A program made the position numbers and the translations under genes. Below the pieces are notes generated by a model, which was not told where the DNA came from, searched no databases, and saw only the letters and a program-made list of their open reading frames with translations. Below, piece by piece: positions 8,325 through 59,325 of a stretch of 64,000 nucleotides of DNA. The DNA comes from Amyelois transitella (taxonomy: Eukaryota; Arthropoda; Insecta; Lepidoptera; Pyralidae): positions 9,722,001 to 9,786,000 of the forward strand of contig NC_083512.1 in the NCBI RefSeq assembly GCF_032362555.1. Reading direction: 5' to 3'. Every line of letters begins with the position of its first letter. Within the stretch, counting starts at the first letter, position 1.

Positions 8325-11300
8325 TCACTGGGTCACCGGGAAGACCGCGCAAGAGCAACAAGAAGGTATCTTGAACTCTTTCTCTGTGTGATTTCCGTCG
8401 TCATTTAGTACCACCATTTTTCGATATTGGTACTTTTGTACACATGTCTTGTTGTACGAGCTTGACATTACGTAGATGAGGTCGGAACAAGGCGCTGATG
8501 CGGGTCTGAAAAAAAATAAAAGTTGTCATACCTTTAGCCTTTACTAGGTAGATAAGCCAATAGGACAAGACTCAATGGTCCCTGGTATAATGAGGGAAGC
8601 TTATGTGAAGAATGGCATTCTTCAGTTTGATAGACTTCTGTGAAATACATTACCCGACCAAGATGGAAGCTATATTTAATAGATATGTATTATGTTTTAT
8701 GGTACTGCCTTAGATACGTATAACCAAAACTACTAAGCATCGAAGCTAAAATTTGACATACATACATACATTAAATCACGCCTCTTTCCCGGAGGGGTAG
8801 CCAGAGACTACCTCTTTCCACTTGCCACGATCTCTGCATATTTCCTTCGCTTCATCCACATTCATAACTCTCTTCATGCAAACTCGGCGGTTTCGGCTAA
8901 AATTTGATGTCTAGTATAAATATTCCTTAAGGATGTTGACTGATAGCCTTTTTTCCGTGCCTTTTCCTAACTCATTTGGCTCTGTCGCGTTTGAATTAAT
9001 GAGTAATTCTTTTTCTATTCGCCTCATAACCTAATCAAATCTCTCTAAAAGAAATTCCATGGGATATATTGCGTAATAACTTGGATACAAACACTTGTAC
9101 AAAATAAGTATTCTTTCTATATTAAATTAAAATAAATAATAATAATAAAATAAGAGCCTTTATTTTTCTCCAAAAGGTTGGTCAGTAAATATAGGTAAGT
9201 GTCAAACATACTTTGCCAGCTGAGGCGTAGGAAATTACATATAATTAAGTACCTATCCAAAAAAAAAGTGTTACGGTAACTTACTCGCAAATTTCCACTC
9301 GAAAACCCTGGAGCACCTGGTTCTTCTGGTTGACCACGACGTACCATTTGCTGTTGTCGTCCCGGACAGCTCTGGGGGCGACCACCTGCCAAATTGCATA
9401 CATACTATTGTAACGTAACATTGCGAGGTAGACAGAGGCAACATTCTTGAAAATACCGGTAGTCCACGTTCAGCTGTGTGACTTCATAACGGAATTACAT
9501 ACATATATACATATTATCACGTCTATATCCCTTGCAGGGTAGACAGCGCTATAAGTCTTGATAAGACCGAAAGGCCACGTTCAGCTGTTTGGTTTTATAA
9601 ACGAATTGAGGTTCAAATAGTGACTGGCTGCTAGACCATCGCTTACAAGAAGAACATTAATCAAGTTTATTAGCCTATCCCTTAGTAGCCTTTTACGACA
9701 TCCATGCGAAAGAGATGGAGTGCTCCAGCACTAAAATAAAATTAAAGATTAATGAAAAATAAAATTGAAAAAATTAAAGATGATTTTTATTGTTAGCTAC
9801 ATATGTAACTATGCAAGTAAAGAATGAAAATCAATAAGTATCTAGTACTTATTCGAATTAACTTAATGCGAAAAAATATTTTAATTAGGTTTATTCTTCA
9901 ATGTAACAAGATATAAATTTAGGTAACACTTACAGTTTCTTTTGATTTACATAACTCCATCATTTCGTCGTGGGGTCCTATTCTTTGTGCGATTTCTGGT
10001 GTCACCAGTCTGTCTACGTTGAAATTGTATTTCGATGATTCCAGCTGAAAACGGAAGGTAAACAATCATTAGGTGGGTGGGTCAAAAGCAAAAAGTCACA
10101 CCTATTCCACTCCCTGGAATTTGCAATGAGGTTGTAGCAGGGACTATGATTCTGCTCGACCGCCACCCAAAGGCTAGATCTTCCGCCAGGCTAGGTGTTA
10201 TGCCTGGGGAACCGCGGCTCCGACGATGTTGAGTCAGAGGTTGTATTTATGTTCCAATCCGTAAAATCTTTGTTTGCGCGATTTAGATATTTCGCTGCTA
10301 TTGGCTGAGCGCGTCGGTTTCTTCGCGATGATTGACAGTGGGTGGACATCATTAATATCACACACATTAGTGATGTCGCCACAATGTAACCTTTTTTTTG
10401 GGGGAAAATCCCAGGATTCGTCTGTCACCCACCACGATCTAGGGTATCACTAACATTTCTAAATTGGATTATCTTTTGCACTTTAGTCAGCTATGCCACG
10501 GATATGTGTACCTAGGCTGCCAGAGTCTCCGCGTAACACGCAGGATGTCATAAAAGGCGACTAAAGTAGCAGGTACAGTCATTTAGTGGAGCTTTAATAC
10601 ATACATATGGTCACGTCTATATCCCTTGCGAGGTAGACAGAGCCAACAGTCTTGGAAAGCCTGATAGACGTTCAGCTATTTAGCTTAATGATAGAATTGA
10701 GATTCAAATAGCGACTTGCTGTTGCAAACCCATCGCCTAAAAAAGAATCCCAAGTTTGTAAGCCTGTCCCTTAGTCGCCTTTTACGACATCCATGGGAAA
10801 GAGATGGAGTGGTCCTATTCTTTTTTGTATTGGTGCCGGGAACCACACGGCACTGGAGCTTTAATCATATTTAAACACGGTTTAGGTGTTGTCTCACCTT
10901 CGTTACGACCTCGTCCACCTTCTCCTGGGGATAATTGTCGACATGCTCGCAGATCCCAGTCTGCAGACACTCCTGGTCAGTGACCTGTGGTTCAAAGGAC
11001 GAGGTCCTGGACGTGGGTCCAGGGAACACCACCTCCCCAGTCGATTTTGTCGGGTCATGATGACCTGAAATTAGATAGGGAAATTGTCATTACTATGTAG
11101 TAGGTAATAGGAAAAAGACCACTCGCAAATACATACATACATATTATCACATCTATATCTTTTGCGGGGTAGATAGAGCGAACAGTCTTGAAAAGGCTGA
11201 TTGGCCACTTTCAGCTTTTTGGCTTGATGATAGAATTGAGATTGAAATAGTGACAGGTTGCTGGCCCTTCGTCTAAAAGCAGAATCCCAAGTTAATTAGC

Positions 11301-24483: not shown

Positions 24484-24546
24484 CAGACTGACCCACACGA
24501 GACATTGAAATATCCACACGTTCATTGTGTTTGAAACTGTATTCAT
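24484..24546 (-). CDS. spz: Candidate signal-peptide exon of spatzle
   Basis: On the minus strand, ATG at 24546 (or the in-frame ATG at 24525) opens MNTVSNTMNVWIFQCLVWVSL and ends at a strong phase-0 donor CTG|GTGAGT. The spatzle exon at 12411 begins in phase 0, so joining them gives a hydrophobic run followed by MLNPSFG, with small residues (Ser, Gly) at -3 and -1 of a possible signal cleavage before YRDYD. A TATA box lies about 45 bp upstream of the first ATG. The alternatives are a missed extra exon or an unrelated small gene; only transcript data can join a 12-kb gap. Confidence 0.5.
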
Positions 24547-28774: not shown

Positions 28775-31700
28775 ATGTTTACGCGAATTGCCATTTTTAT
28801 TGTAAGTTTTTTTTTGGAATAATCTTCAAAGACTGTAATAATGAAAAATCTGAATTCTTTTCTCATCTATCATAATTGGACAGTAAATTTGCACGAGATC
28901 GCATAAAATAGATCATTAAATTATTTGTATGTAATACAAATCTTAAATCATAAAAATAAAAATCTCATTGAGTGAATTTTTAATTTCCTCTGATTCCACA
29001 CAGATCAATTGACTGTGTTGACCCGGCGTCTTATTTGCTTTGTTACTACTCGTAGTAAATGATACAATACTTTCATTTGTATGATAATTGGAACTACTAT
29101 TTCGATAACAATGTTCATTTATTATGAACCCTCGAAAGGTTGCAGACCTTTAGTATATTTACATTCAGTTATCTATCACGTCAATCACCCTTACAGAGAA
29201 AATGAAGCCAGCATTCATTCATTCATTCATATAATCACGTCTATATCCCTTGCGGGCAGCAAGCAGTCTTGTAAGTCTAACAGGCCACGTTCAGCTGTTA
29301 GGCTTAATGATAGAATTAAGATTCAAAAAGTGACAGGTTGCTAGCCCATCGCCTATAAGAAGAATCCCAAGTTTATAAGCCTATGCCTTAGTCGCCTTTT
29401 ACGATATCAGTGGAAAAGAGATGGAGTGGTTCTATTCTTTTTTATATTGGTGCCGGGCACCACACGGCATTCACTTAGCTGTAAAGGTAACTTTAACGAT
29501 CAATATTGGAAGTGAGATCCAATTCAGATAGTAACAGGACAGGTTACTAGCCCATCGCATAAGGACTTAACATTTTTTTTTTAATAAACGCACTGTTTTT
29601 TCTGTTTATCATCAAGAAGTTTTTTAACAAGAGGTTGAATTGAAGGATTATCGCTGTTTCTTAGTTATCTGTGACAAGAGGCGGTTAAATTTTTAAAGTT
29701 TAAATATTGACATGAAAAGTATGGAAGAAAAGTTAAAAGGAAACAATAACATTAAATTATTTTATTGTAAGAGCTGAATAAAACTATGTAATACCTGGGA
29801 ATTACCGTTGGTTTACCTACTTATTTATATTCTTACCGCGTAAAGAGCATAAATTGCATTGGATCACGTAAACTCGTATAAAATAAAGCACTAAAATTAA
29901 GGATGTTGGGAAGAAATAGTACCTCCATTTTCTTAATTCCGTAAGTCTGTGTTTTTGTAACATACATACATGAATACATATAATCACGTCTATATCCCTT
30001 GAGGGTAGCCAGAGCCAACAGTCTCGAAAATAAAGAATTAAATATATACGGGACAAATTACACAGATTGATTTAGCTTCGAAGTAAGTTCGAGACTTGTG
30101 TTACGAGATACTAACTCTATGGTACAATATTTTATAATAAATACTTATATAGATAAACATCTATGACCCAGGCCAATCAGAAAGAGTTAGGTTTTTACAC
30201 GAAGCGACTTCCATGTGACCTTCGCAACCTTTTCAGGTCTACACCTGAACCAGTATTTGATCGATCATGGTTACACATTCAGTTGCCTGAATGTGCAAGT
30301 TTCCTCACGATGTTTTCCCTCACCGTAAGAGCACCAATTAGTATTCAAACGAATGGTCATAACTTAGAATTAATAGTTATTGTTACATTGGCCGAGGCTG
30401 GATTTGAACCTGTGCCCTTCTGCGCATCAAGCATTTTAACCGGGCAACTTACCGATTCGACCACTGACGCTTTCTAACGGACGTCATAATAAGCATGTAT
30501 GTATAAGAAAATAAAAAAAGACGTGCTTTTCTCTACGGTTAGTTTTGTTAAAAAACAATACGGATATAGACAATTGTTTGCTTTTATTAACGACAAACTA
30601 CCGTGTGGTTCCCGGCACCAATAAAAAAAAGTATAGGACCACTCCATCTCTTTCCCATGGATGTCGTAAAACGACTAAGGGATAACTTACAAATTTGGGA
30701 TCCTTTTTTAGGCGATGGGCTAGCAACCTGTCACTATTTGAACCTCAATTCTATCATTAAGCCAAGTAGCTGAACGTGGCCATTCAGTCTTTTCAAGACT
30801 GTTGGCTCTGTCTACCCCGCAAGGGATATAGACGTGACTATATGTATGTATGTATATAAACAATTTAAGGTAATTAGGTCTGCATGTGGTCTTTATAACC
30901 CATATCAGTCACTGACCTTGCCATTTCATTGTCCACCCACTACGGCATTCACTTGTTTATGTCTGTATTTGCTCACGTTTTTGTATATTCACTCAGGTCT
31001 CCGTTTGCAGTTTCAATTCTGGAGATGGCGCTTATTCAAGATGTGAGTACAAAATTTGACATGCATACATATAATAGCGGGGTAGACAGAGGTAACAGTT
31101 TTGATAAGACTGATAAGCCACGTTCAGCAGTTTGGCTTAATGATAGAATTTAGCGTCAAACAGTGACAGGTTGCTAGCCCATCGGGTGAAAAAAGAAGAC
31201 ACATACAAATGGTCATGTCTATATCCCTTGCGGGGTAGACAGAGCCAACAGTCTTGTAAAGACTGAATGGCCACGTTCAGCTATTTGGCTTAATGATAGA
31301 ATTAAGATTCAAATAGTGACAGATTGCTAGCCCATCGCCTGTAAGAAAAATCCCAAATTTATGAGTCTATCCCTTAACCGCCTTTTACGCCATCCATGAC
31401 AAAGACAAGGGGTGCTTTTATTCTTCTTTTTTATCGGTGCCAGGAAATACACGGCACTTATTTCTTTCTAGAAACATACAATAAAACCAATCAAAACGTC
31501 ACACAGGCTGTAAAACTCACGGACATGAAACCGCCGGCAAAACCGGTCGTTAATAAAAGCAAACAAAGTTTTAATTACGCTATGACACATCGCAACAGTT
31601 AACTGTAGTAGCAAAGGTCATATGCTTGTGTTATTATAGCTTAATAAGGTATTATGATTGGTCGCACACTATAAATGATTATTTAAATCGTATTCCGTAT

Positions 31701-37700: not shown

Positions 37701-38523
37701 CGTTCTTGGACTGTGTGACTGACTGGAGGGAATGACAAAACTGACTGACCATTCTGTTTCAGAGCGACCGGCTGTACAGCATTAAGACTAAGGAGGGTGA
37801 CTGGCGGCACATTATCCAAGCGCCAACGGAAAACTTCCAACAAAGAGTTAGGATAGAAGTTTGCACGTGAGTGTCCCAACCCTATGAATAGGGAGAACCC
37901 TCCTTTTGTCGCAGTCGGGTAACAAAAAATAGGATAGTGATTTTTTTTGTTACGTGGAAGGAAAGGTCGGAGTGGGAAAGTTTAGACGAACGTAATAAGG
38001 ACTTCCTGGCGAAAGGTCAGAGCTGAGATATGAAGAGACTTATGAATGTGGATGAAGTGAAATAGGAAGTATGCAGAGATTTTGGCAAGTGGAAAGATGT
38101 AGTCTTTGCCTATACCTCCGGGAAAAAGGCGATGGGCTCGCCTCTAACTATATGAATCTCAATTCCATCATCAAGCCAGACAGTTGACCGTTTTATATCA
38201 GTTTTTTCAAGACTGTTGCCCTGTCTACCCCGCAAGCCAAAAGACTTGATTAAATGTATGTATAATCAAGTCTATAGGCTTGCGGGTATATTTAATGTAC
38301 GGTATATGTAACCAACAAATAATTAATGGCATTTTTTTGCATTTCCAGCGCATTAGAAACATCATGCTTCAAGGATTTCCCTAGTTTCGGTGGTATCACA
38401 ACGTTTTGCCGGCAGAAACAAGCCAAGTACGAGTTTGTGGTGGACGACGGGATGGGTGGGTCTGCGAAAATGGAAACCGAATTGCCCTCGTGTTGTGTTT
38501 GCCATTACAAAGCCCCTGTTTAA
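28775..38523 (+). CDS. Spatzle-like gene SPL-A (diverged paralogue)
   Basis: Exons found: 28775-28801 (MFTRIAIFI, start of a signal peptide), 32572-32723, 36181-36273, 37763-37866 and 38349-38523. One short exon (length 3n+1) between the first two is required by phase and was not firmly found. The 32.6-kb exon encodes DKIVYPGPT and CKNLTYCFEPPSNYPQERYN (prodomain motif, with an N-glycosylation sequon); its donor is AAG|GCAAGT. The next exon contains VVNR then LADDDYNDDC, a plausible cleavage site before the first knot cysteine; about 107 residues follow. Seven knot cysteines: DDC, EVC, TSC, TFC, and PSCCVC. A short tail ends ...YKAPV, with AATAAA at 38544-38549. Probably a small secreted ligand precursor; receptor unknown. 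The 32.7-36.2 kb intron holds the hAT/mariner nest. Confidence 0.85.
29215..29469 (-). repeat. Family A repeat, full length
   Basis: ATTCATTCATATAATCACG tail to GGTGCCGGGCACCACACGG; a GCATTCA word flanks both ends as a possible target duplication. Confidence 0.8.
29962..30027 (-). repeat. Family A repeat, 3' fragment
   Basis: Only the tail and about 45 adjacent bases (ATAATCACGTCTATATCCC...CAACAGTCTCG) remain. Confidence 0.6.
30033..30180 (-). repeat. Family C SINE, body only
   Basis: AAATATATACGGGACAAATT to CCAGGCCAATCAGA; the tRNA head is absent (5'-truncated). Confidence 0.7.
30192..30477 (-). repeat. Family D tRNA-headed SINE
   Basis: Head on the minus strand: AAGCGTCAGTGGTCGAATCG ... 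GGTTCAAATCCAGCCTCGGCC; body ends near AAAAACCTAACTC. The 5' half is well preserved. Confidence 0.7.
30599..30856 (+). repeat. Family A repeat, full length
   Basis: CTACCGTGTGGTTCCCGGCACC to GACGTGACTATATGTATGTATG. Confidence 0.85.
31061..31196 (-). repeat. Family A repeat, 5'-truncated
   Basis: CATGCATACATATAATAGCGGGG to GCCCATCGGGTG; abuts another copy. Confidence 0.65.
31199..31458 (-). repeat. Family A repeat, full length
   Basis: ACACATACAAATGGTCATG to GGTGCCAGGAAATACACGGCAC. Confidence 0.8.
31749..32006 (+). repeat. Family A repeat, complete, with 10-bp target duplication
   Basis: TGAATAAGAT at 31739-31748 and 32007-32016 flanks a 258-bp copy running from GTGCCGTGTGGTTCCCGG to TATTATGTA. 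Confidence 0.88.
32105..32190 (+). repeat. Family A repeat, 3' fragment
   Basis: TTCAAGATTGTTGGCTCTATC to GACGTGATTATATGTATGTATG. Confidence 0.65.
32338..32383. other. 17-bp inverted repeat
   Basis: AATTGTGAACACCTTTT and its exact complement flank a 12-base spacer. Confidence 0.75.
32403..32491 (+). repeat. Family A repeat, 3' fragment
   Basis: AAAAAGCCAATAGCTGAACG to AAGACGTGATTATATG; ends about 80 bp before an SPL-A exon. Confidence 0.6.
32911..33153 (-). repeat. Family A repeat, full length
   Basis: CAATATGGTCACGTCTATTTCC to GCCGGGAACCACACGGCAC. Confidence 0.8.
33638..33884 (+). pseudogene. hAT transposase remnant, upstream piece
   Basis: In frame: NTFLPICDQLLGELRRRK, then LNALSLQKSYPTDLADDLKD, typical of the region before the hAT dimerisation domain. 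The frame is broken by the mariner at about 33885. Confidence 0.6.
33885..35160 (-). mobile_element. mariner element (inserted in the hAT copy)
   Basis: The transposase ORF fills most of the element. The right end is placed at the TA at 35160-35161 (reverse reading CATTCAGTCAGAAAAGTATC). The matching left inverted repeat was not found: only a few bases separate the stop codon from hAT sequence, so the 3' end of the mariner seems truncated. Confidence 0.7.
33891..34964 (-). CDS. mariner transposase (DD34D), open reading frame
   Basis: From MDKNIEQR (the start usual for mariners; the ORF extends 25 codons further upstream) to the stop it is 357 residues without a frameshift. N-terminal helix-turn-helix region: RAYEWYKAFKSGRD, then DLPRSGRPSTS. 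Catalytic triad: TGDETWVY, HHDNAPSH, and YSPDMAPADFFLFPKLK, with exactly 34 residues between the second and third Asp (DD34D). The linker motif corresponding to WVPHEL reads LVPKDLN here. The protein would cut and paste its own element at TA sites. Because one terminal repeat appears lost, this copy is probably not mobile itself though it could act in trans if expressed. Confidence 0.93.
   Translation of the reverse strand: MDKNIEQRVCLKFCIANGISCSESLKMLQKAYGESTLSKTRAYEWYKAFKSGRDVMEDLPRSGRPSTSATEVNIAKVKEIVTENPHSTLREIATELSVSHESIRTILTNNLGMKHVAARLVPKDLNFFQKLNRMRVAEDMLERVNSDPTFMKRIVTGDETWVYEFDMQTSQQASEWRLPTEPKPKKPRQSRSKVKVMLTVFFDYRGVVHSEVLPEGQTVNKEYYLSVMRRLREQIRRKRPDLWKENSWILHHDNAPSHKAIIVNEFLTKHSTNTIEQPPYSPDMAPADFFLFPKLKLPLRGTRFQSVEDIKENSRRELTSIPETAFKKCFDDWIIRWRKCMVSKGEYFEGDKINLDE
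35162..35497 (+). pseudogene. hAT transposase C-terminal dimerisation domain remnant
   Basis: The frame reads KDLKVAFPYIEIALRIFLCT, NCSAERSFSLLKRLKNYLRS, RLIEERLNNLAILNIE, the classic hAT C-terminal dimerisation block (S-ERSFS-L...LR-RL...L--L-I). It ends at 35497. Disconnected from the rest of the transposase by internal deletion and the mariner. Confidence 0.8.
35876..36120 (+). repeat. Family C tRNA-headed SINE, full length
   Basis: CGGCCTCTGTGGCGCAACGG, then GGTTCCGGGTTCGAATCCCGG head; body to TATATATTTATTTATTTTT. Ends about 60 bp before an SPL-A exon. Confidence 0.78.
36455..36655 (-). repeat. Family F repeat
   Basis: CTACTAATAAGATAAATGCG, ACTGAACCGATTACGATGAA, and TTTCCATGCGGACGAAGTCGCG; nearly the same as 44.1 kb. 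Confidence 0.65.
36899..37146 (+). repeat. Family A repeat, full length
   Basis: ACTGGTGCGGTTTCCCGGCACC to GACGTGACCATTTGTA. Confidence 0.82.
37565..37665 (+). repeat. Family G-like tail
   Basis: TTCTATGCAATAAAGATATT, then ACAAACAAAACTAACAAAC. Confidence 0.4.
37975..38112 (+). repeat. Family B repeat, 3' part
   Basis: GGACTTCCTGGCGAAAGGTCAG to GGAAAGATGTAGTCTTTGCC. Confidence 0.7.
38124..38263 (+). repeat. Family A repeat, 5'-truncated
   Basis: Starts AAAGGCGATGGGCTCGCC, ends at TGTATGTATAAT; fused directly to the end of a family B copy, in the last SPL-A intron. Confidence 0.65.
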
Positions 38524-43165: not shown

Positions 43166-46100
43166 ATGTTTACACAGATTCTAGTCTTGTTTGTAAGTAT
43201 ACATTTGGTTTAGTTGATTTTATTTGTAGATAATCTATGTTAATGAATGTAATTAGTTTGTTTATTATAGACGATGTATTATTTAAAGTGCATGTTAGAA
43301 GTAATTTAGGACCCTAACTCCGTAAAGTCAGGGTGCAGTGACTTTATTTATTTCATTAATTAATCCAACTAAAACTAAAGATTCGATTTTATTGATAATT
43401 AGGTATTATATTTTATTATTAGATATTAAATTGCGCGGGAAATAATACGGAGCTGTTTTGCTATCTAACTACATAAGTAGGTACATTATTAAGTTTTTTT
43501 AATTTTTGTTAAAAAACAAAGTTAAATAAATATTAAGTGTTTTATTGGAGAAATGATAGTTCTACCATTTATAATCAACCATAATAACAGAAAGCAGTAC
43601 CTAGTATTTTATTAAAAGACAAAAAATATAAAAACTAGATAGAAAAAAATTTGAAAATTACAGAAATCTGACTTTTGTTAATTTTACTTATGTAAAAAAA
43701 CCGTTTGATAAAATATGTCTTTTTGGTAAATGTGTCCCTATTTAAATTGTGGTAATTAAAATTTAGCACTATGGAATTTGGAATAATTAAAATCAAACTA
43801 AATTATTGTATTTGAAACGAGAGGGATGATTTATCGTCGTCTTGAAACGCAAGTAGAGTTGTATAGTTGGCAAATAAAACTCAACATTGAGATGGTTATA
43901 CATTCAGATGTTTGAATGCAGATACAGCGGTTTCCTTACCCTAAGAGCATCGGTTAGTACACAAACTAATGTGCATAACTCAGAAAAGCGTCTGATACAT
44001 AGCCGTGGCAGGATTTGTACGTGTGCACACGCATTTTAGCCGGGCACCATACGAACGTAGGTGAAGAGTATGGAATAATATACCTTATGTCTTTAGTTAT
44101 CCTACTAATATTATGAATGTGAAAGTTTGTATGTCAGGATGTCAGTATGGATGTTTGTTACTCTTTCACGCAAAAACTACTGAACCGATTACGATGAAAT
44201 TTGGTATGTATGTAGCTGAAGACCCAGAATAACATATAGGCTACTTTTTATCCCAGAGTTCCTGCGGGATTGATAGGGTTTCCATGCGGACGAAGTCGCG
44301 GGCGGCCTCTAGTAGTGACATAAGCTTAAGGAGTCACAATTGCATGTGTAAACCTTGTCGCAATGTTATTTTAGTGCCTCGTTCTAAAGTCCCGCTAAGT
44401 AGGTAGATACAGTAACTATTGACTTATAAAGTAATGTTTTGAACAAGTACATTTATTGATAGACCATTTGATCGATATATAAATAAAACATATTATTATG
44501 TCGGTACAGTTATGTTGCTGTAACTACTTCCAGTTATCCGCGGCTTAGTTCGTGTAAATAATATAGTAGTAGATTGTCCTAAAATATTTTGTTAACAATA
44601 GTTTTAATTATTTTACAGGTTGCAGTCTACTATGTTAAGTTAGCAAATGGCGCCATTTCTAATAAACGTAAGTACTATAATTATTATTATAGTGCCGTGT
44701 GGTTCCCGGCACCTATACAAAAAAGAATAGGACCACTCCATCTCTTTCCCATGGATGTCGTAAAAGGCGACTAAGGGATAGGCTTATGAAATTGCGATCC
44801 TTTTTTAGGCGATGGGCTAGCAACCTGTCACTATTTGGATCTTAATTCCATTATTAAGCCGAGCAGCTGAACGTGGCCATTCAGTCTTTTCAAGACTATT
44901 GGCTCTGTCTACCCCGTAAGGGATATAGAAGTGACTATGTAAGTATGTATGTACTATAATTATTTCGAGTCTGTGTAAGTAGGTATATGAAAAAAGACGA
45001 TATATAATTATAGTGTATGCCGTGTGGTTTCTGCCACTTAAGAATAGAACAACTCCATATCTTTCCCATGTATGTCGTAAAAGGCGACTAAGGGCCTCAA
45101 CTTGGGATTTTTTTAGGTGTTGGGCTACCAATCTGCCACTATTTGAATCTCAATTTTATCATAAAGCCATACAGCTAAACAGAACGAGGAAATTCAGTCT
45201 TTTCAAGACTATTGGCTCAGTCTATCCCGCAAGGAATATAGGTGTGACTATAATGTATGATTGATGTATACATACATACATATGGTCACGTCTATATCCC
45301 TTGCGGGGTAGACAGAGCTAACAGTTTTGAAAAGACTGAATGGTCACGTTCAGTTATTTGGCTTACTGATAGAATTGAGATTCAAATAGTGACAGGTTGC
45401 TAGCCCATCGCCAAAAGGAAGAATCCCAAGCCTGTAAGCCTATCCCTTAGTCGCCTTTTACGACATCCATGGGAAAGAGACGGAGTGGTCCTATTCTTTT
45501 TTTCAATGGTGCCGGGAACCACACGGCTGATGATGGCATGATTGATGGTACATATGTATGATTACAATGTGTGTGATGTGAGCGTATTGAAATTGTACAT
45601 GTATAAAATGAATATGTTTAAAAAAAAGATACAATTTAATTTTTTCCAGCTCCCGACGCGATTGTATACCCAGGTCCCACACAAGAAGTCTTGCAGACGA
45701 GGTACGGGTCAGAAGATGATGTGCCCGAGGAGTGTCGCGGGCAGAACTACTGCTTCGTAAAACCGCCAAACTATCCTCAAGATAAATACAACAGAATGTT
45801 TGCTGATATGGTAAGCATATCAAATTAAGGACCTCCTGGTAAAGTGTCAGGTCAAAAGTACCCGAAACCGCCGAGCTTGCATGAAGTAGTTATGAATGTG
45901 GATGAAGCGAAAGAAGTGTGCAGAGATCGTGGCAAGTGGAAAGAGGTAGTCTCTGCCTACCCCTCCGGGAATGAGGCGTGATTTTATGTATGTATGTTTG
46001 TATGGTAAGCATACTTTCTCGGTGATTCTCCGTTTGATCTGTATGTATGCATGCATGCATATGTGAATGTCTGCATGTATGTCCTCGATTATCTAGCGCT

Positions 46101-48467
46101 TCGCTGAACAGATTTTGATGCGGTTTTCAGGAAAATGTTTATTACACTCAGGCGGAGGTTTAAGAAAATTAACTACTTCAAAAAAGGAGCATATCGATTG
46201 TAGGCGGATTTCTTTTTACAAAATTACATATAGCCTTCTGTGCCGTGTGGTTCCCGGCACCAATAAAAAAATAATAGACCATCTTCATCTCATTCCCATG
46301 GAAATCGTAAAAGGCGACTAAGGGATAGGCTTACAAACTTGGGATTCTTCTTTTAGGCGACGGGTTAGCAAACCTGTAACTTTATATTAATCTCAATTCT
46401 ATCAGTTAGCCTAACAGCTGAACGTGGTCTGTCAGTATTTTTAAGACTATTGGCTCTGTCTACCCCGCAAGTGATATTGTCGTGATTATATGTATGTACG
46501 AGTATATACACATCAGGCGCTGCCTGATTGTCATAGCCACACGGCATCTGTACCTACATAACTGACTGATACTGACTGATAAAACTGACTTGTATGCTTT
46601 GATACATTCCAGAAAGATGTGAAGCAGCCATCAGTCATCATCTCAGAACTGGACGACAGGACCGGCGACCCCGGTGAAAAGGACGGCTGCGATTCTGTTG
46701 TCACGGTAAATATATAAATAAATAAATATATAAACTGTTATAGTGCCGTGTGGTTCCCGGCATCAATTCAAAAAAGAATAGAACCACTCCATCTCATTCC
46801 CTTGGATGTCATAAAAGGCGACTAAAGGATAGGTTTATAAACTTGGGATTCATTTTTTAAGCGATGGGCTAGCAACCTGTCACTATTTCTCAATTCCATC
46901 TTAAGGCATACAGCTGAACGCCTGAAGCCAATGCAAGGGATATAGACGTGACCGTATGTATGTATGTACATATGTAAGACTGCCAAGATTATATTTTGTT
47001 ATACAAGAATTCCTTACCAAATACTTTAAGAGGTGTACTATTACCGTTGTATTATTGGCGTAAATATTGTAGTTTTTATGTATGTATATTATAATTTTAT
47101 TTTATATTTTGTGTAGGTATAAATATATTTATTTAGTTTGACCCCACATAAAGTTCTCTGTCAGACTCAAAAGTTGACTCGTAGATAATGCTTCCAGCAT
47201 TAAGTCCGCCAATTGTGCTATACATTTGTATTTTGTGCAATCACTCTTCTTTCAATATTATTTTTATTTATCTCTTTTTTAATATTATACATTTGTGCAA
47301 TGAAGTTTAAATAAAAAAATAAAAAAAATAAATAAATAAAGGGGTAATGTAACATTAAAATGTTATCATTTCAGTACGAGCCGCTGTACCAGGTGCAGGC
47401 AGGAGGTCGATGGCGGAAGGTAGTCCAAGCACCAGATGTCAACTACCTTCAACGAGTTAGATTGGAGAAATGCAAGTGAGTACATAAGTAAGTGCCGTGC
47501 GGTTCCCGGCACCAATACAAAAATAGTATAGGACCACTCCATCTCTTTCCCATGGATGTCGTAAATGGCGACTAAGGGATAGGCTTATAAAATTTAAGGC
47601 GATGGGCTAGCAAACTGTCACTATTTGGATCTCAATCAATCAAGATCTCAATTCCATCATTAAGCCGAGCAGCTGAACGTAGCCATTCAGTCTTTTCGGG
47701 ACTACTCTCCGAGGATTCAGGATAAAGAACAAGTTTCACACGTCATACACGTACATATAATCACGTATTTAACCCTTACGGGATAGTCAAAGCCAACATC
47801 AGTCTAGAAATACCAACATACAATTGTATGGCTTAATAATAGCATTGAGATTCAAATAGTGACAGGTTGCTAACGCATCGCCTAAAAGTAAAATCCTAAG
47901 TTTATCCTAAGTAAAAAAACAGAACTTATTTACATACATAGAATCACGTCTCTAACCCTTGCGAGGCAGACAGAGCCATCTCTATAAAACCGAAAGGCCA
48001 GGCTCAGCCGTACTTATTTACATACATACATACATATGATCACGTCTATATCCTTTACGGGGTAGACAGAGCCAACAGTCTTGAAAAGACTGATAGGCCA
48101 CGTTCAGCTGTTTGGCTCAATGATAGAATTGATATTCAAATAGTGACGGGTTGCTAGCCCGTCGTCTAAAAGGAAAATCCCAAGTTTATAAGCCTATCCC
48201 TTAGTCGTCTTTTACGACTTTTTTTTTTAATTCATTAAAAACGTAGATATATGTAATTAAACCATTTATTTTTTTATTTTCAGTGACAAAGTGCCAAGAT
48301 GTTTCTCTGACTACCCCCCAGTGCCGGGTATAACCACAATGTGTCGTCAAAAGACGGTGTCGTGGGAGTTTCTCGTAGACGACGAGAAAGGCGGCACCGA
48401 GCGGGTCACGGCGGAACTGCCTATTTGTTGTGCCTGCATGTACAAAATGGAAAATAAAAGGAAATAA
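43166..48467 (+). CDS. Spatzle-like gene SPL-B (diverged paralogue)
   Basis: Six exons join cleanly: 43166-43192, 44619-44667, 45650-45810, 46613-46705, 47375-47475, 48284-48467 (phases 0, 1, 0, 0, 2), giving 204 residues. The first two encode a signal peptide, MFTQILVLFVAVYYVKLANG. The third has AIVYPGPT and CRGQNYCFVKPPNYPQDKYN, aligned to SPL-A. In the fourth, ISELDDR then TGDPGEKDGC is a plausible activation site at the same exon position (residue 16 of 31) as in SPL-A, leaving a mature form of about 109 residues. Knot cysteines: GC, KC, RC, MC, and PICCAC: seven. The C-terminus is basic (MENKRK). AATAAA overlaps the stop and recurs at 48558-48563. Family A repeats have entered four of its introns. 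Secretion and Toll-type signalling are inferred from the family. Confidence 0.92.
43880..44060 (-). repeat. Family D SINE, diverged copy
   Basis: CATTCAGATGTTTGAATGCAG, CCCTAAGAGCATCGGTTAG, and a worn head GTGGCAGGATTTGTACGTG. Confidence 0.5.
44098..44312 (-). repeat. Family F repeat
   Basis: ATCCTACTAATATTATGAATG, ACTGAACCGATTACGATG, GCGGACGAAGTCGCGGGCGG. Confidence 0.68.
44686..44950 (+). repeat. Family A repeat, complete, with 14-bp target duplication
   Basis: GTACTATAATTATT at 44672-44685 and 44951-44964 flanks the copy. The insertion begins only 18 bp past the SPL-B exon 2 splice donor. Confidence 0.88.
45018..45260 (+). repeat. Family A repeat, full length, diverged
   Basis: ATGCCGTGTGGTTTCTGCC to AGGTGTGACTATAATGTATG. 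Confidence 0.75.
45269..45528 (-). repeat. Family A repeat, full length
   Basis: TACATACATACATATGGTCACG to GGTGCCGGGAACCACACGG, close to consensus and inverted relative to the copy before it. Confidence 0.85.
45826..45998 (+). repeat. Family B repeat, full length
   Basis: AAGGACCTCCTGGTAAAGTG to GATTTTATGTATGTATG; begins about 15 bp after an SPL-B exon. Confidence 0.82.
46240..46498 (+). repeat. Family A repeat, full length
   Basis: GTGCCGTGTGGTTCCCGGCACC to GTCGTGATTATATGTATG. Confidence 0.82.
46740..46972 (+). repeat. Family A repeat, with internal deletion
   Basis: TAGTGCCGTGTGGTTCCCGG cap; the TTTTCAAGACTGTTGGCTCTG part is deleted; GTGACCGTATGTATGTATG tail. Confidence 0.78.
47180..47320 (+). 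repeat. Family G-like tail
   Basis: TAAGTCCGCCAATTGTGC and TTTGTGCAATGAAGTTTAAAT. Confidence 0.4.
47491..47712 (+). repeat. Family A repeat, 3' end lost
   Basis: GTGCCGTGCGGTTCCCGGCACC to CATTCAGTCTTTTCGGGAC; starts 15 bp after an SPL-B exon. Confidence 0.78.
47750..47915 (-). repeat. Family A repeat, truncated
   Basis: CATATAATCACGTATTTAACC to TAACGCATCGCCTAAAAG. Confidence 0.65.
47935..48220 (-). repeat. Two adjacent family A repeats (fragment, then truncated copy)
   Basis: A short tail fragment (47935-48011) abuts a longer copy (48018-48220, CATACATACATACATATGATC to CGTCTTTTACGAC). The second lacks the cap and ends in a T run. Confidence 0.7.
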
Positions 48468-50330: not shown

Positions 50331-53300
50331 TCAAAACTTTATTATTTTACCCATAGGGTGTATTTCGCATCGGCAGCATATTGGAACACCTAGAGCCTTA
50401 ACGCTTTCGAATCCATTCCCGTCTTCTGCCAGCACCAAGAATCTGTAGTTAGAATATGATTCTACACAATACGCGCTGTAAGAGTCTTCTCTCAGTTTGT
50501 CAATCTTGAGATATTCGCCTTTATCTTCTGTTATTTCGCCTTTATTCCTGAAATAAAAACCTTCTTATACCAGTTGCAGAGACTACATCTTTCCACTAGC
50601 ACGATCCCTGCATACTTCTGTCGCTTCATTCACTTTAATAAATGTCTCTTATTCATTTATTTAGCCTTATAGCTATTCCAACCTTCAGAATCATAAATAT
50701 GTACGTAGGATATGGGAGCTATTGACTTTCTTGACGGGCTAGCAACCTGTCGCTATTTGAATCTCAATTCTATCATTAAGCCAAATAGCCCAAATGTGGC
50801 CTATCAGTCTTTTCAAGACTGTTGGCTCTGTCTACCCCGCAAGGGATATAGACGTGATTATATGTATGTGTATATATATAGTAATTATTACTAGTAACTT
50901 ATAAGTAGTTACGTTAAATTACCTGCACCATTCAACTTTGAGTATTTGTTGGAACCGAGTGGCTTGCACGACGTAACGCACTTTGTTGTTTATGTCTTTG
51001 ACTTGATAAATAGGCTCAAGCTGAAATTAAAACAACCTATAATATCATCATTCTCCTGGCGAAGTCACGGTTGCGTGATACGTCACTAGATGGGAGGAAT
51101 AAAACAGCACCACCCCAATCTTCGCGTAGGTATCGTAACAGTAGATTAAAGGATTAAGCGGGTCTTGGGCAGCAGCTTCTCCTATGCTAATATGACAACA
51201 TAGTCCAGAATAAATAGTCACTCCGGTCAAAAACCTGCCTGCCCAGAGTGGTGACTATGGTTAAAATCCCCCCATTTCTGTAGGAGTTAGTGCAATAGTG
51301 GACTTTTATGGGCTGTTAAGGTAACCATAAGAAGATCTTGGTATACAATTAGTTGCCCGAATGTACAGGTTTCCTAACGGTTTTCCTTTACCGTAAAAGC
51401 ATCGGTTTGCGATGACTTAAGTACTTACATAACTCAGAAAGACTTATAAGCGGGGTAGGGTTATAACCTGTGCTACCCTTTGCGTCACACTTCATATTCG
51501 GGCGCCTAACCCCTTCGATCATTGACTCTCTAAATTAATACATTATATTAATACATTTACATCAGATATAAAGGCTTGTTTCAGTAAAACTTCCCCAATG
51601 TGGTGATATGCAACCTCCAAGTAAGATTTGACATACATACATATGGTCACGTCTATATCCCTTGCGGGGTAGACAGAGCCAACAGTCTTGAAAAGACTGA
51701 ATGGCCACGTTCAGCTATTTGGCTAATTGATAGAATTGAGATTCAAATAGTGACAGGTTGCTAGCCCATCGCCCAAAAATAATCCCGAGTTTGTAAGCCT
51801 ATCCCATTGTCGCCTTTTACGACATCCATGGGAAAGAGATGGAGTTGTCCTATTCTTTTTTGTATTGGTGCCGGGAACCACACGGCAGATTAGATTTGAC
51901 ACCTTTTAATAAAAAGGGACATTTAATTTGTGTCACATGCTTAAGCCATATTTACTGAGAAATGGTCAGTTATTCTACAATTTATTCAATGATAATTATA
52001 CAGAATGACTTGAGCATGTGACACTAATTAAATGTCCCTTCTATGATAAAAGGTGTCAAAGTTAATGTAGAGGCTGCATATCACCACACCCAAGCTACTC
52101 GCTACATCTTACATATTATGAGAAAAAGAAGAATGCCGTGTGGTTCCCGGCACCAATACAAAAAAGAATAGGACCACTCCATCTCTTTCCCATGGATGTC
52201 GTAAAAGGCGACTAAGGTATAGGCTTACAGACTTGGGATTCTTTTTTAGGCGATGGGCTAGCAACCTATCACTATTTGAATCTGAATTCTATCATGAAGC
52301 CAAATTGCTGAACGTGGCCTATCAGTCTTTAAAAGACTGTTGGCTGTGTCTAACCCACAAGGGATATAGACGTGACCATATGTATAAATGAAGAATACTT
52401 ACAGAGTAATTAAGCTCACAAGGCGTTACTATAGAATGGTCGGTCGTCCCGCGTTGTTCAGTGGTCGCGCCATCAATTTTTATTACATCCTGGTAAATAA
52501 AATCAATAATAAATAAGGGTAGGCAGAGACTACCTCTTCCCACTTGCCACGATCTCTGCATACTTCCTTAGTGGCTATATATAATACTAATAAAAATGCC
52601 TACCCCTCCGGGAAAGAGGCGTGATTTTATGTACGTATGTATGTATAAAAAAGGGAAAATCAATCAAAAGAAAAGCCAATAAATTTGGGATTCTTTTTTG
52701 AGGTTATAGGCAAGCAACCTGTCACTGTTTGAATCTCACATCGTTAAGTTATAGAGTTGAACTTGGCCCTCCAGTTTTTTTGAGATCGTTGGCTCTGTCT
52801 GCCTCGTAAGGGAGACGTGATTACATGTTAAGAAGTGGACTGTAAAATTACATAGTTATCAATAAGACAATCACTAAAATCGACCCTGGTCGGCTGAGGG
52901 TCAGCAGCTAACTTCAGGGCCCTGAGTACGATTTCCAATATTTAAATCTCCACTATGATCAACTTTCGCATCCTCAGTTTTCAGACCATTGGAAAGTATT
53001 ATTATTATTCTACCTATCTTCTCATGAAATGACAAGATGAATGGAGTACTCTTTTTTTCTATCATAGAGCATCCATGAACAATATTTCAGAGTTGTTGCT
53101 TTCAAAGCCCCCCAAAGATGATTGACAACTTGTAAGGAATACATTTTATTTATCACGTCTAAAATCGACAATCACTAAAATCACAACTTACAGTTTTGTT
53201 GACTAGTTCTTCAATGAGAGCTGAGGGATAGTCGGCACCGCGTTCAAAGCAATATGTACTATTTCTGCAGTTCGGATGCATTTCAACTGAAAAAGAGAAT

Positions 53301-53662
53301 TTATATCAATTTTTGACATACAAGCAAAGTAAGAGACTCATATTCACCGCTTATTTAAAAAAATACAGGGTTATTTTACTTACCATTTTTGAAATTAAGC
53401 GGGGTGCCGTTTGATGACGTGATCAGTATGACCAACATCTGAAAGCAAAAAAGTATTTAAATTCTTAGGTAGTTAGGTACCTATTCGCAAAATAGAAAAA
53501 AAAAACACCAGTGGAATGTAAATAAAGCTCAGAAGTTAAAATTCTTGTTGGGAAGCCTGATACAAAAAAAAATTCTGTTCAATTCGAAATGAATGATTAT
53601 TTATTATTGTACTATTAGAAAAGAAAAATACTCACAATAAATAAAACAGCGTTCTGCGACAT
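50331..53662 (-). CDS. Spatzle-like gene SPL-C (diverged paralogue lacking one knot cysteine)
   Basis: Six minus-strand exons: 53636-53662, 53384-53438, 53192-53286, 52403-52489, 50923-51020, 50331-50547 (phases 0, 1, 0, 0, 2), 192 residues. Exons 1-2 encode a signal peptide, MSQNAVLFIMLVILITSSNG. Exon 3 has CRNSTYCFERGADYPSAL, the prodomain motif with a sequon between the cysteines. Exon 4 has TEQR then GTTDHSIVTPC, a plausible activation site; about 120 residues follow. The knot domain shows PC, EWC, YC and PICCRC, that is six cysteines: the third family cysteine, present in spatzle and SPL-A, -B, -D, has no counterpart in the stretch after EWCRNKGE. The C-terminus is longer (EIHPMGKIIKF). 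AATAAA on the minus strand at 50285-50290. Likely secreted; function unknown. Confidence 0.9.
50570..50645 (-). repeat. Family B repeat, fragment
   Basis: GAGACTACATCTTTCCAC to TCGCTTCATTCACTTTAAT; in the last SPL-C intron, very near its exon. Confidence 0.55.
50721..50868 (+). repeat. Family A repeat, 5'-truncated
   Basis: ATTGACTTTCTTGACGGGC to GACGTGATTATATGTATG. Confidence 0.75.
51345..51525 (-). repeat. Family D SINE, diverged copy
   Basis: GTTGCCCGAATGTACAGG, GTAAAAGCATCGGTTTGCG, then a worn head with GGGGTAGGGTTATAACCTGTGC. Confidence 0.55.
51594..52093. mobile_element. Fold-back element carrying a family A insertion
   Basis: The left arm (CAATGTGGTGATATGCAACC, then GACACCTTTTAATAAAAAGG, GGACATTTAATTTGTGTCAC) is mirrored at the right (reverse: GTGTGGTGATATGCAGCC, GACACCTTTTATCATAGAAG, GGACATTTAATTAGTGTCAC). 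Without the inserted repeat the element would be about 240 bp, nearly all arm. Confidence 0.75.
51633..51889 (-). repeat. Family A repeat, complete, inside the fold-back arm
   Basis: TAAGATTTGAC before and TTAGATTTGAC after are an 11-bp duplication with one change. Cap and tail are both present. Confidence 0.85.
52134..52386 (+). repeat. Family A repeat, full length
   Basis: ATGCCGTGTGGTTCCCGGCACC to GACGTGACCATATGTATA; GAAGAAT on both sides is a likely short target duplication. It ends 17 bp before an SPL-C exon boundary. Confidence 0.82.
52513..52646. repeat. Two opposed family B fragments
   Basis: A minus-strand piece (52513-52568, AGGGTAGGCAGAGACTACC) and a plus-strand 3' piece (52593-52646, GCCTACCCCTCCGGGAAAG with TATG tail) face each other. 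Confidence 0.6.
52672..52830 (+). repeat. Family A repeat, degraded
   Basis: AAGCCAATAAATTTGGGATTC to GTAAGGGAGACGTGATTACATG. Confidence 0.6.
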
Positions 53663-53830: not shown

Positions 53831-54164
53831 TAATTTCCGTGACGTAATTTATAATCAAGAAATACGTTAGAAATATGACAAAATAAGGATATGAAACAGG
53901 AATATCAGTTTATTGCAGAAGGTTAAACACATAATGAAATTACAGAAAATCTAATGACTAACAGTAATTGACGTCTTTATGAAAAACTAATGGTAGTATA
54001 ATGCGTATGCGCATGCACTGGGCTCCTTGGTTCCTAAGGGAAATTGAATACATATCACGTTTTTATTAATTACGGGTAACATTTATTGATATAAACCTTC
54101 CTCAGAAAGTCCTCCTTCCAACATTTCAAACAGGAACAAAATCCGTCCCCTACTTTCCACATAA

Positions 54165-54236: not shown

Positions 54237-54324
54237 TGTATATATGTATGAAGGTTCTTTGAATAAATTCTTTTTACTTTTTTACTTTTAAAGGTTAATT
54301 ACTGTTCTTTTTTTCGAGACAAAC

Positions 54325-55489: not shown

Positions 55490-55550
55490 TTGTCTGTTAC
55501 CTCTTCCGAGTTAACCACTAAACCGATTCTAATGAAATTTCGCATAAGAA
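55490..55550 (-). repeat. Family F-like fragment
   Basis: TTGTCTGTTACCTCTTCCGAG, ACCACTAAACCGATTCTAATG, AAATTTCGCATAAG. Confidence 0.4.
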
Positions 55551-56014: not shown

Positions 56015-59000
56015 TTAATCTTTGGTCTTATCCCTGATGGTACACTTGCAACACGTACTGACTGGTACTGGCAAGAGTTTGACTTTTTCGGAGACCTCGT
56101 CGAAAACGTACACGTCTATTTCGCCAACTTGCGTCTCACATGTTGCTTGGAAGCGGTCTTCCTGTAGGAATATATTTCTCATGCACTGGCCTCCTTGGTT
56201 TCTAAAAAGTATTAGAATCTCAATATAAAACGAAACGCTTACAGAATTATTAACTGGTATATCAATCACGGCCCAAATCGCTAAGTTTAAGGTTTGAAAT
56301 TTAGAATGTAGATTGTAGGTTTTTTAATTACCAAAGCCTACAGCCATTACTCTTTGGTACACACATACATACACGTATATAATCATGTCTTTAATATCCT
56401 TTGCGGGACAGACAGAGCTCACAGTATTGAAATGACTGATAGGCCACGTTCAGCTGTTTGACCAAATAGAATGATCCAAATAGTGACAGGTTCCCCATCA
56501 CCCATCGCCTAAATGAAGAACCCTAAGTTAAGCTAAGTTTGTAAGCCTATTTCTTAGTCGCCTTTTACGACATCCATAAAAAAGGGATAAAGTGGTCCTA
56601 TTATTTTATTTATATTAGCTCCAATAAACAGTGGTTTTTACAGTAGATTTTTATTGCTCACTTAAAACATTTGAGAATAAATTAAGGCGATCGGTTCTTA
56701 CTTGCAAGTTACATGTCTGATTCTTTGCGTGAAGAACTTTGATTGGACAACAGGGTACCATCGATTATTTTCTCCTTTAACTGAAAAAGGTCTCAACATC
56801 TGAAAAAAATATGTTTAGGTAAGATAAACACTAAAAACAATACTTCTTTTTTTTCATGCAAAAGTCGGTCTGACTGAAACGCTTTCACGGTTATGTCATA
56901 GGCCGTATTTGATGAAATTTCGTGCGGAAATAGAAAAAAAATATAACAATAAAAAAAAATTAAGAGAATTGAATTGTTGTAAATTTGCATAGGTGCGAAT
57001 TCCCGATATATGTTAATTATGAATTGTATTCAGTAAAATGAAATTAGTGTCATTAAGAAAACACCTAAGTTGCACACAAAAAAAAACTTAGTCAGTGAAT
57101 TGCATGAGCATTTTATGGTACCAAACACTAAATGTTTTTCTGTTTAGTGAGTCGGTAAACTGGCAGAGAATTCCAAACGGCAGCCTTTTGTACATTTTAC
57201 TTTGTACAATAACGTTTTCAATGCCGTGTGGTTCCCGGCACCATTAGAAAAATGAATAGGAACACCCCATCTCTTTCCCATGGATGTCGTAAAAAGCGAC
57301 TAAGGGATAGGCTAATAAACTTGAGATTCTTCTTTTAGGCAACAGGCTAGCAACCTGTCACTACTTATTTGAATTTCAATTCTATCATTAAGCCAAACAG
57401 CTGAATGTGGCCTATCAGTCTTTTTAAGACTGTCGGCTCTGTGTACCCCGCAAGGGATATAGACGTGATAAGAATAATAGAAAAAATATGCATAGATACT
57501 TGAACTTCAGTACTGCAGTTTATTTCATCTTCTCTTTCATGATTTAACTTATCCATCTCATCTTCTTCAAAGTCCGGGCTGTTTGGCAAAGGGCTCTGTA
57601 AAATATTAAATAGGTGAAATATTTTTAAATTTTTTTTTGCTGAGCGGAGACCTTTTTGGTACATTTTTGGATGTAAATTGTCATATTTTTATTTGTATTT
57701 TGTATCAAATAAACATATTTTCTGTCTTTCTTTCTTTTTAGGTATATTTGCATGTCTCTTATAAAATCAAGAATTATTATATTATATCATTAGTCATTTA
57801 CTGAGATATATACTGAAGAAGAATGAGTGGTCCTTTACCATTATGTATAAAACCACTTAGCCGATAATGATAAAATACTAACATGTTTCAAGTATGCGTC
57901 GATAGCTTTCTGCGGATAATTCTCGTAGCTCGACGGATTTTCAAAACACATTGCTTTGTTGGCACAATTTCGAGGTACTATCAAATTATTATTTGCACCT
58001 GTAAGAATAAACAATATTAAGATAAATTAATGAAAAATAAGTCTATGCAGTTATAGAATGTGCAAAATGATAATCATAATGATTATGGATTTTCCTTTTT
58101 ATTTTGGTTGACTGGAAGAAATCCCGGTTGTGATAAGTCCGCCATTGTACATAGGTATTCTTCTATATCCAATGACTGTTCTATTTTTGTTACATTTGTT
58201 TATATGTGCAATAAAGAGTTTACAAACAAACAAACATAATAGAACTTATGTGTGTAAAATTTTAAAAAGAAACCAAATAGAAAATAAGAATTATTTCTTC
58301 AAAATAATTTGTTTAGTTTGCTTACCTTGTGTATTGTTCACTTGAAGAACAACAGTTCCTACCTGAAACAAAAACATTTGAATAAAAATTATCAGATCTT
58401 CGGACGTAAGGTGAATATTTAATATATTCACGTACATCTTAAAGGTGTGTCGCATTATCAATATTGTTATATCTTAGTTTTTTAATTAAGACAAAGAGCG
58501 TAGGTGGTTTAATTGGTAAGATGATAATACATATGCGTGATGCGCAAAAAGGCACGGGTTCGAATCCCACTTCGGCCATGTACCAATGACTTCTTTCGAA
58601 GATATGTACATTATTTTGAATATTAATCGATGCTCTCATGTTGAAGGAAAACATCGTGAGGAAACCTGCACAGGTAACTGGATGTGTAACCCTGATCGAT
58701 CCAATACGTCAGGTTTACCTGCAAAGGTTGCGGAGGTCAGATGGGAGTCGCTTCGTGTAAAAACCTGACTCATCCAAACCAGGATCTATGGTCTGAGGCA
58801 TACCCTGGGCTCCTCGCCAGAGTGTTGAGGATGTAACTGGAACTAGCCAAGAGGAAGAAGGATGTCAAGGTCCTAAAATAATATAGATAAAAAATAAATA
58901 CCTGTGACTATCAAGTTATCCAAGTTAACGTGAAAAAGCTTTATAGAGCTTGGATTTTAAAATATTTTGCATAGTTTGACTTCACTAGGTAGATATTGTG

Positions 59001-59325
59001 GCGTCATCTCTACGCCATTCGCCACAAACATCAAATCAAACAACTACTGTCAATCATCGCGAAGAAAATGACGCGCTCAACCAATAGCAGCGAAGAATCT
59101 GAGACGCGATTTCAAAGATTTCACGGATTGGAGCTATATATACAACCTCCGACACAACATCGTCGGAGCCGCGGTTCCCCAGGCATAACACCTAGCCTGG
59201 CGGAAGATCTTCCCTTTGGTGGCGGTCGAGCCGAATCATCGCTCCCGCTACAATATTATTGAACTTTTTAGAAAAATAGAAAATTTAATATTACATACCA
59301 ACAAACAGATCGATAAGGTCTTCAT
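56015..59325 (-). CDS. Spatzle-like gene SPL-D (diverged paralogue)
   Basis: Six minus-strand exons: 59299-59325, 58326-58362, 57883-57998, 57500-57595, 56702-56799, 56015-56201 (phases 0, 1, 0, 0, 2), 186 residues. MKTLSICLLVGTVVLQVN is the signal peptide. Exon 3 has CANKAMCFENPSSYENYPQK, the prodomain motif in a slightly longer form. Exon 4 is very acidic (DFEEDEMDK) with LNHER then EDEINC, a plausible cleavage point; about 105 residues would remain. Knot cysteines: INC, VTC, GQC, ATC and STCCKC, seven as in spatzle. Exon 5 starts MLRPFSVKGENNRWYPVVQS, whose RWYPVVQ corresponds to KWYVVVNQ of spatzle. Two unusual junctions: donor GTTAGT after exon 3, acceptor TTTTTAG before exon 6. TTTATT at 55825-55830 gives a minus-strand AATAAA. 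Probably secreted; function unknown. Confidence 0.9.
56364..56615 (-). repeat. Family A repeat, near full length, diverged
   Basis: CACATACATACACGTATATAATC to AAGTGGTCCTATTATTTTA. Confidence 0.7.
57221..57470 (+). repeat. Family A repeat, full length
   Basis: ATGCCGTGTGGTTCCCGGCACC to ATATAGACGTGATAAG; lies in an SPL-D intron about 30 bp from an exon. Confidence 0.82.
58105..58240 (+). repeat. Family G repeat tail
   Basis: TTGACTGGAAGAAATCCCGG, TAAGTCCGCCATTGTACAT, GTGCAATAAAGAGTTTACAA then ACAAACAAAC. Confidence 0.55.
58500..58865 (+). repeat. Family D tRNA-headed SINE, full length
   Basis: GTAGGTGGTTTAATTGGTAAG ... GGGTTCGAATCCCACTTCGGCC head; body GAGGAAACCTGCACAGGTAAC to GGAACTAGCCAAGAGGAAG. 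In SPL-D intron 1. Confidence 0.75.
58997..59252 (+). mobile_element. Solo-LTR-like element, copy 2, with 4-bp target duplication
   Basis: The 256-bp block starts TGTGGCG, ends CTACA, and is flanked by ATAT on both sides (58993-58996, 59253-59256). It contains GAGCTATATATACAACC, a TATA-like box. These are LTR hallmarks; no internal retroelement region is present. It lies between SPL-D exons 1 and 2. Confidence 0.62.

Follow-up and report, generated by a model that had tools for sequence, protein, structure and literature searches.

The window analysed here is a 64,000-nucleotide stretch of the moth Amyelois transitella (contig NC_083512.1; C8:9722001-9786000 in a 327-Mb genome of 33 contigs), and it carries a Spätzle-1-like gene, spätzle, together with four strongly diverged relatives that we call SPL-A, SPL-B, SPL-C and SPL-D. 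The gene order is slo, CutA, spätzle, SPL-A, SPL-B, SPL-C and SPL-D, on the -, -, -, +, +, - and - strands, respectively. As modelled, spätzle spans 11064-8325 (-), SPL-A 28775-38523 (+), SPL-B 43166-48467 (+), SPL-C 53662-50331 (-) and SPL-D 59325-56015 (-). Position 8325 is the final base of the spätzle stop codon and 59325 is the A of the SPL-D ATG, exactly the limits given for the cluster in a preliminary description of this DNA. That description called the arrangement tandem, which is correct only in part, two genes lying on the plus and three on the minus strand. Most of this region was read directly, and the part between 12.0 and 29.5 kb was covered by a script scan only.

Genes were rebuilt by script as exons, introns and reading frames. 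Each SPL consists of six exons, the first of 27 nucleotides (nt) in all four, and its frame is open up to the stop codon, giving proteins of 198 (A), 204 (B), 192 (C) and 186 (D) amino acids (aa). The longest exon has 217 nt, in line with the ceiling of about 220 bp proposed earlier. The intron phases 0-1-0-0-2 recur without deviation in the 20 SPL introns, and GT-AG borders are found in 19 of them; the other, intron 3 of SPL-A, is GC-AG with an otherwise strong donor, AAG/GCAAGT, at 32724 (+). A mariner-type transposase open reading frame of 382 aa (33891-35039, -; Transposase_1, E 1e-17) lies within this same intron. The first poly(A) signals appear 20-184 nt past the stop codons of the four SPLs. 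For spätzle, exons 3-6 are clear and their phases agree with the SPL pattern, but four scans of the approximately 17 kb upstream, up to SPL-A, revealed nothing convincing for exons 1 and 2, the best lone exon-1 candidate (24484-24525) included. The proposal of five in-frame sets of small exons with a single phase pattern therefore stands for the SPLs and for exons 3-6 of spätzle; the first two phases of the latter are unconfirmed, and the first exon once suggested for it was neither confirmed nor excluded by those scans. In all five genes the phase 2 intron falls inside the cystine knot, after knot cysteine 2, and the intron-exon structure within the knot has been called characteristic of the Spätzle family (PMC8296651; this and the other reports cited by PMC number were consulted in part). 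The features are as follows, with their basis in brackets:

8325-8505, minus strand: spätzle (Spz1-like) exon 6, second half of the knot, ends CCxC, stop (PF16077, 44.6 bits alone)
9285-9385, minus strand: spätzle exon 5, first half of the knot, Trp loop (script model)
9934-10044, minus strand: spätzle exon 4, candidate activation site IAQR and first knot cysteine (alignment)
10898-11064, minus strand: spätzle exon 3, prodomain with FPGPT, C-x5-C and NYPQ (script model)
28775-28801, plus strand: SPL-A exon 1, MFTRIAIFI (upstream stretch common with SPL-B)
30997-31042, plus strand: SPL-A exon 2 (one of two candidates)
32572-32723, plus strand: SPL-A exon 3, prodomain C-x5-C and NYPQ, followed by the GC donor (script model)
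36181-36273, plus strand: SPL-A exon 4, candidate activation site VVNR (alignment)
37763-37866, plus strand: SPL-A exon 5, first half of the knot (script model, profile scan)
38349-38523, plus strand: SPL-A exon 6, second half of the knot, stop (Pfam, profile scan)
43166-43192, plus strand: SPL-B exon 1, MFTQILVLF (script model)
44619-44667, plus strand: SPL-B exon 2 (script model)
45650-45810, plus strand: SPL-B exon 3, prodomain (script model)
46613-46705, plus strand: SPL-B exon 4, candidate activation site LDDR (alignment)
47375-47475, plus strand: SPL-B exon 5 (profile scan)
48284-48467, plus strand: SPL-B exon 6, stop (Pfam, profile scan)
50331-50547, minus strand: SPL-C exon 6, without the third knot cysteine, longer loop, stop (Pfam, profile scan)
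50923-51020, minus strand: SPL-C exon 5, Val at the Trp column (profile scan)
52403-52489, minus strand: SPL-C exon 4, candidate activation site TEQR (alignment)
53192-53286, minus strand: SPL-C exon 3, prodomain (script model)
53384-53438, minus strand: SPL-C exon 2 (script model)
53636-53662, minus strand: SPL-C exon 1, MSQNAVLFI (script model)
54012-54032, minus strand: start of an SPL-D-like exon 6 with a TTAG acceptor, decayed after it (20 of 21 nt, E 0.001 in 104 kb)
56015-56201, minus strand: SPL-D exon 6, stop (Pfam, profile scan)
56702-56799, minus strand: SPL-D exon 5 (profile scan)
57500-57595, minus strand: SPL-D exon 4, candidate activation site MDK or HER (alignment)
57883-57998, minus strand: SPL-D exon 3, prodomain (script model)
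58326-58362, minus strand: SPL-D exon 2 (script model)
59299-59325, minus strand: SPL-D exon 1, MKTLSICLL (script model)

Membership in the Spätzle family, as originally suggested, was borne out when the spliced proteins were compared with the Pfam Spaetzle profile (PF16077). All five passed the curated cut-off of 27 bits, with 86.6 for spätzle, 45.5 for SPL-A, 41.5 for SPL-D, 41.3 for SPL-B and 38.2 for SPL-C. Assignment to another cystine-knot family was rejected, given that four of the five proteins matched no other Pfam family up to E 10 and the sole non-Spaetzle match was that of SPL-B to one coiled-coil family (E 0.63). When a profile made from the five proteins was run against the PDB, the only chains up to E 1 were those of fly Spätzle (3e07, E 7.5e-11; 4bv4) and of Aedes Spz1C (E 4.5e-6). 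Capture by a virus was also considered and discarded, with no relative present in viral contigs (eight pattern matches, none confirmed). On this profile evidence SPL-A to SPL-D are members of the Spätzle family, and a cystine-knot fold is assigned to them by homology.

Exon sets of this size might also arise as chance assemblies, chosen by eye among many possible exons. Exons 1 and 2, of 27-55 nt, do carry little information, and those of SPL-A were taken from short candidate lists; the Pfam scores of the spliced proteins and a control scan speak against such an origin. For the control we used a knot profile built from the fly, mosquito and window Spätzle sequences plus five further Spätzle genes from the moth's own genome, with the SPLs excluded, and scored the 3491 open segments of at least 20 aa in 104 kb. 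Exons 5 and 6 of spätzle and of the four SPLs supplied the ten best segments, the eleventh having an E of 0.43; eight of these ten constitute an independent test, spätzle itself having been in the profile. Chance assembly is thereby refuted for knot exons 5 and 6, and for the exon sets as a whole we give it next to no credence.

The proteins share a common anatomy (Met-Phe-Thr at the start of both SPL-A and SPL-B was read correctly from the outset). The N-termini of SPL-A to SPL-D are hydrophobic and, judged by eye, signal-peptide-like; the signal peptide announced for all five thus holds to that extent for the SPLs, and none was confirmed for spätzle, whose N-terminus was not found. The prodomain motif, first given as C-x4-C, is C-x5-C followed by YP(Q/S) in every one of the five. 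A basic residue occupies a single alignment column 9-10 residues before the first knot cysteine (R, R, R, K and R in SPL-A, -B, -C, -D and spätzle), within the candidate sites VVNR, LDDR, TEQR, MDK and IAQR, respectively, and this column is the expected trypsin-type activation site; SPL-D has a second candidate, HER, closer to the knot. Seven of seven knot cysteines are present in spätzle, SPL-A, SPL-B and SPL-D and six of seven in SPL-C, so that the complete cystine-knot pattern described for all five applies to four. Outside the signal region there are nine cysteines in these four proteins and eight in SPL-C. The second cysteine of the CC pair, presumably the interchain cysteine of fly Spätzle, is kept in all five. 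SPL-C has Val at the column that holds Trp in eight of the 12 aligned rows. The missing Trp is no strong mark of decay, as the mosquito protein and two Spätzle genes on contig C16 lack it too.

SPL-A and SPL-B are 44% identical, and all other pairs among the five proteins 24-32%, the SPLs being 24-30% identical to the spätzle of the window at lengths of 186-204 aa. Synonymous sites are saturated in all ten pairs (proportion of synonymous differences, pS, 0.75-0.85), nine of which give no finite estimate and one a synonymous divergence (Ks) of 3.95, compared with nonsynonymous proportions (pN) of 0.37-0.56. In a simulation of neutral frames of the same length, which took in substitutions but neither indels nor splice sites, the share of the 2000 runs with a frame still open was no more than 0.6% at 0.3 changes per site and no more than 0.1% at 0.5. 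Third-codon G+C is 0.42-0.54 in the SPLs vs 0.34-0.37 in their introns. Since synonymous sites are saturated and the frames remain open, the duplications are old and the frames have been kept; the four SPL genes are probably intact and maintained by selection. A 14-base stretch, ATTCACACCAGTCT, is common to SPL-A and SPL-B some 60-90 bases upstream of their ATGs (28775 and 43166), and the upstream match scores 42 vs 38 for the best of 200 plain shuffles. It contains CAGT, a possible initiator, and is compatible with a kept transcription start.

These data also bear on the idea that there is at least one pseudogene or assembly artefact among the SPLs. The 21-nt relic at 54012-54032, between SPL-D and SPL-C, was left by a further, dead copy or by a partial duplication and shows that a gene of this cluster can be lost, and the GC donor of SPL-A and the cysteine missing from the SPL-C knot would fit decay as well. 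Against this, four intact frames with all their splice sites have persisted despite saturated synonymous sites, and copies that are at most 44% identical are unlike a false duplication. We regard this alternative as very improbable.

In the rest of the genome, searches were run exon by exon, scoring only the best candidates. With SPL-B, SPL-C and SPL-D as queries (SPL-A was not one) no further copies were found in the 327 Mb, the sole match being a chance-level one on C23 (E 0.57), and the 10 kb to the left and 30 kb to the right of the window gave short matches only (E 0.03 or worse), in keeping with the local cluster first proposed. The Pfam Spaetzle search of the whole genome yielded 11 exon matches at six loci, namely the spätzle of the window, three genes on C6 (neighbours at 2.204 and 2.211 Mb and another at 12.55 Mb) and two more on C16. 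It did not list the SPLs, presumably because scoring goes exon by exon; with them, the genome holds at least 10 Spätzle genes. The view that Spätzle genes mostly occupy separate loci fits the general pattern in this genome, but the C6 neighbours form a second adjacent pair (2203662-2211445), with about 6.5 kb between knot exons; one member is diverged with an open knot, and the other we take to resemble Spz5.

TIR domains gave at least nine matches in the genome. Six of them fall within 1.8 Mb on C7 (3435070-5200189), each in one uninterrupted frame of 1255-1348 aa. On C16, about 15 kb separates a Spätzle gene from a Toll-type gene whose 782-aa open segment has a TIR match and, judged by eye, leucine-rich repeats (9895916-9896639 and 9911820-9914168); putative receptor and ligand genes are near neighbours there. 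At the left side of the window, an exon of slo (3538-3963) matches fly slowpoke with E 4e-53; the same exon alone gives no Pfam match.

Additional Spätzle-1 genes have precedents in other insects. In the moth Ostrinia furnacalis, OfSpz1B is a complete protein of 221 aa with a signal peptide, 33% identical to OfSpz1A, and both genes are induced by Beauveria (PMC3895045). OfSpz1B is, as the SPLs probably are, a diverged extra Spätzle-1 of a moth; the likeness is one of description and implies no orthology. It is a single extra gene known from a transcriptome, with no locus described in the parts of that report consulted (PMC3895045), whereas here four are mapped beside spätzle. That a 221-aa second Spz1 had emerged from a transcriptome (PMC3895045), and that small exons are ordinary for eukaryotic annotation, makes the term hidden, which had been applied to the four SPLs, an overstatement. 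In the mosquito Aedes aegypti there are Spz1A, Spz1C and SpzX, and the consecutive gene numbers of the last two (AAEL013433 and AAEL013434) suggest that they are neighbours (PMC9427763); Spz1C is represented in PDB entries 7b1b and 7b1c. Spz1A bound neither of the Aedes Tolls tested, and Spz1C bound Toll5A and not Toll1A or fly Toll (PMC9427763). Aedes thus resembles our moth, which probably has a duplicated Spz1 as well, but it is a mosquito, and the changed receptor specificity was measured in its proteins (PMC9427763), whereas the SPLs are known here from genes alone.

With Drosophila Spätzle C-106 (PDB 3e07, 4lxr and 4bv4) the SPLs share knot homology and the position of the interchain cysteine, which is common to fly and mosquito (PMC9427763). 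The seven cysteines and the Trp column of the fly protein are found in SPL-A, SPL-B and SPL-D, but SPL-C has six of the seven and no Trp at that column, a comparison made on the knot. Spz1 of Helicoverpa armigera has a predicted Arg activation site and nine cysteines (PMC4490664), the latter number being that of spätzle, SPL-A, SPL-B and SPL-D too. Catalogues list six Spätzle genes in Helicoverpa, three in Bombyx and five in Plutella, and in the parts consulted mention no such cluster (PMC4490664, PMC11447326, PMC4421797). A survey of 40 genomes reports that Spz1 forms taxon-specific groups and counts 16 Spätzle proteins each in Bombyx and Manduca (PMC8296651, Table 1), and genes like the SPLs may therefore already be annotated. 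No description of a moth Spätzle gene cluster was found in the literature searched, which covered few subscription papers and may have missed accented words; in that literature, consulted in part, a mapped cluster with a common gene structure and the six-cysteine SPL-C are undescribed. Given the Ostrinia and Aedes precedents and the survey counts, the SPLs are not a new type of gene; extra Spätzle copies are known in other insects, and the SPLs are a new set of a known type.

Spätzle-1 is secreted as a pro-protein and cut by a trypsin-like clip protease, and its knot, a dimer, binds Toll, the immune receptor that it switches on. As far as this plan can be read from sequence, the SPLs retain it, SPL-C being one cysteine short, and we therefore infer that they are similar ligands with altered receptor or tissue use. 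The locus is probably an old local expansion of moth Spätzle-1, perhaps a lineage-specific one as first suggested, in which the SPLs are intact genes for small secreted pro-cytokines. Each SPL pro-protein would be secreted, a trypsin-like protease with a clip domain, of the kind that processes Spätzle, would cut it at the basic residue, the C-terminal knot would dimerise via the second cysteine of the CC pair, and the dimer would engage a Toll ectodomain; the four SPLs are, in this sense, putative Toll ligands. The loops that, in solved complexes, are turned towards the receptor have diverged strongly, which hints at differences between the copies in receptor, tissue or potency, and SPL-C, with its incomplete knot, seems the best candidate for an altered mode of action.

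Several observations weigh against this expansion of active ligands. SPL-C lacks knot cysteine 3, which we take to pair within the knot in fly Spätzle, and has a longer loop in its place. SPL-D alone found no Spätzle chain when compared with the PDB by phmmer. In the tree, the four SPLs stood apart from the eight other rows, spätzle among them, at 81/86, with no starred fork and with long branches; it does not show descent of the SPLs from Spz1, nor does it resolve the order of duplication. An expansion of receptors to match the SPLs is not evident from the TIR matches. The upstream match of SPL-A and SPL-B is one of six pairs compared, most of the remaining upstream sequence of the two is unlike, and among the other five pairs only SPL-B/SPL-D beats the shuffles, via a common repeat. 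Finally, kB-like sites are not clearly enriched in the 2 kb upstream of the SPLs (eight in 4 x 2 kb, that is, 2.0 per 2 kb vs 1.7 in the window).

Another reading is that the SPLs, although true Spätzle paralogues, have ceased to be Toll agonists and instead damp Spätzle-1, as decoys or by pairing with it in hetero-dimers, SPL-C foremost. The retention of the interchain cysteine in all five proteins while the knot otherwise varies, along with the loss of cysteine 3 in SPL-C, would agree with this, and duplicated Spz1 proteins can lose or change binding, as with Spz1A and Spz1C of Aedes (PMC9427763). But all five have also kept the basic residue of the activation column, which a passive decoy would not need, and we think such a role improbable.

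Spätzle genes also act in development, and the SPLs could be Spätzle-type ligands with a non-immune function, such as one in development or in the secretion of the male accessory gland. Such a function would overlap with the expansion of pro-cytokines favoured above, since these ligands may still act via Toll. Two spaetzles are among the putative secreted accessory-gland proteins of Plutella xylostella, but they were not detected in the bursa of the mated female (PMC9960318). As Spz1A and the diverged Spz1B of Ostrinia are both induced by Beauveria (PMC3895045), a non-immune role appears unlikely, though less so than a damping one.

Our preferred reading, that of intact pro-cytokine genes, introduces no new mechanism. 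A bolder form of it, which we put forward tentatively and with some doubt, is that moths keep, next to spätzle, an ancient bank of private Toll ligands, every SPL with an activation site and a receptor or tissue to itself, and that SPL-C works with a six-cysteine knot, a form not seen among the solved Spätzle chains matched in the PDB. If so, one protease cascade could address several Tolls. Five related ligands set against the Toll receptors of one species would make receptor specificity directly testable. In view of the reports consulted, the number of Toll ligands in moths, given as three to six genes in four catalogues, may be too low for some species, and in pest and model moths this would change which ligand gets credit for an immune response.

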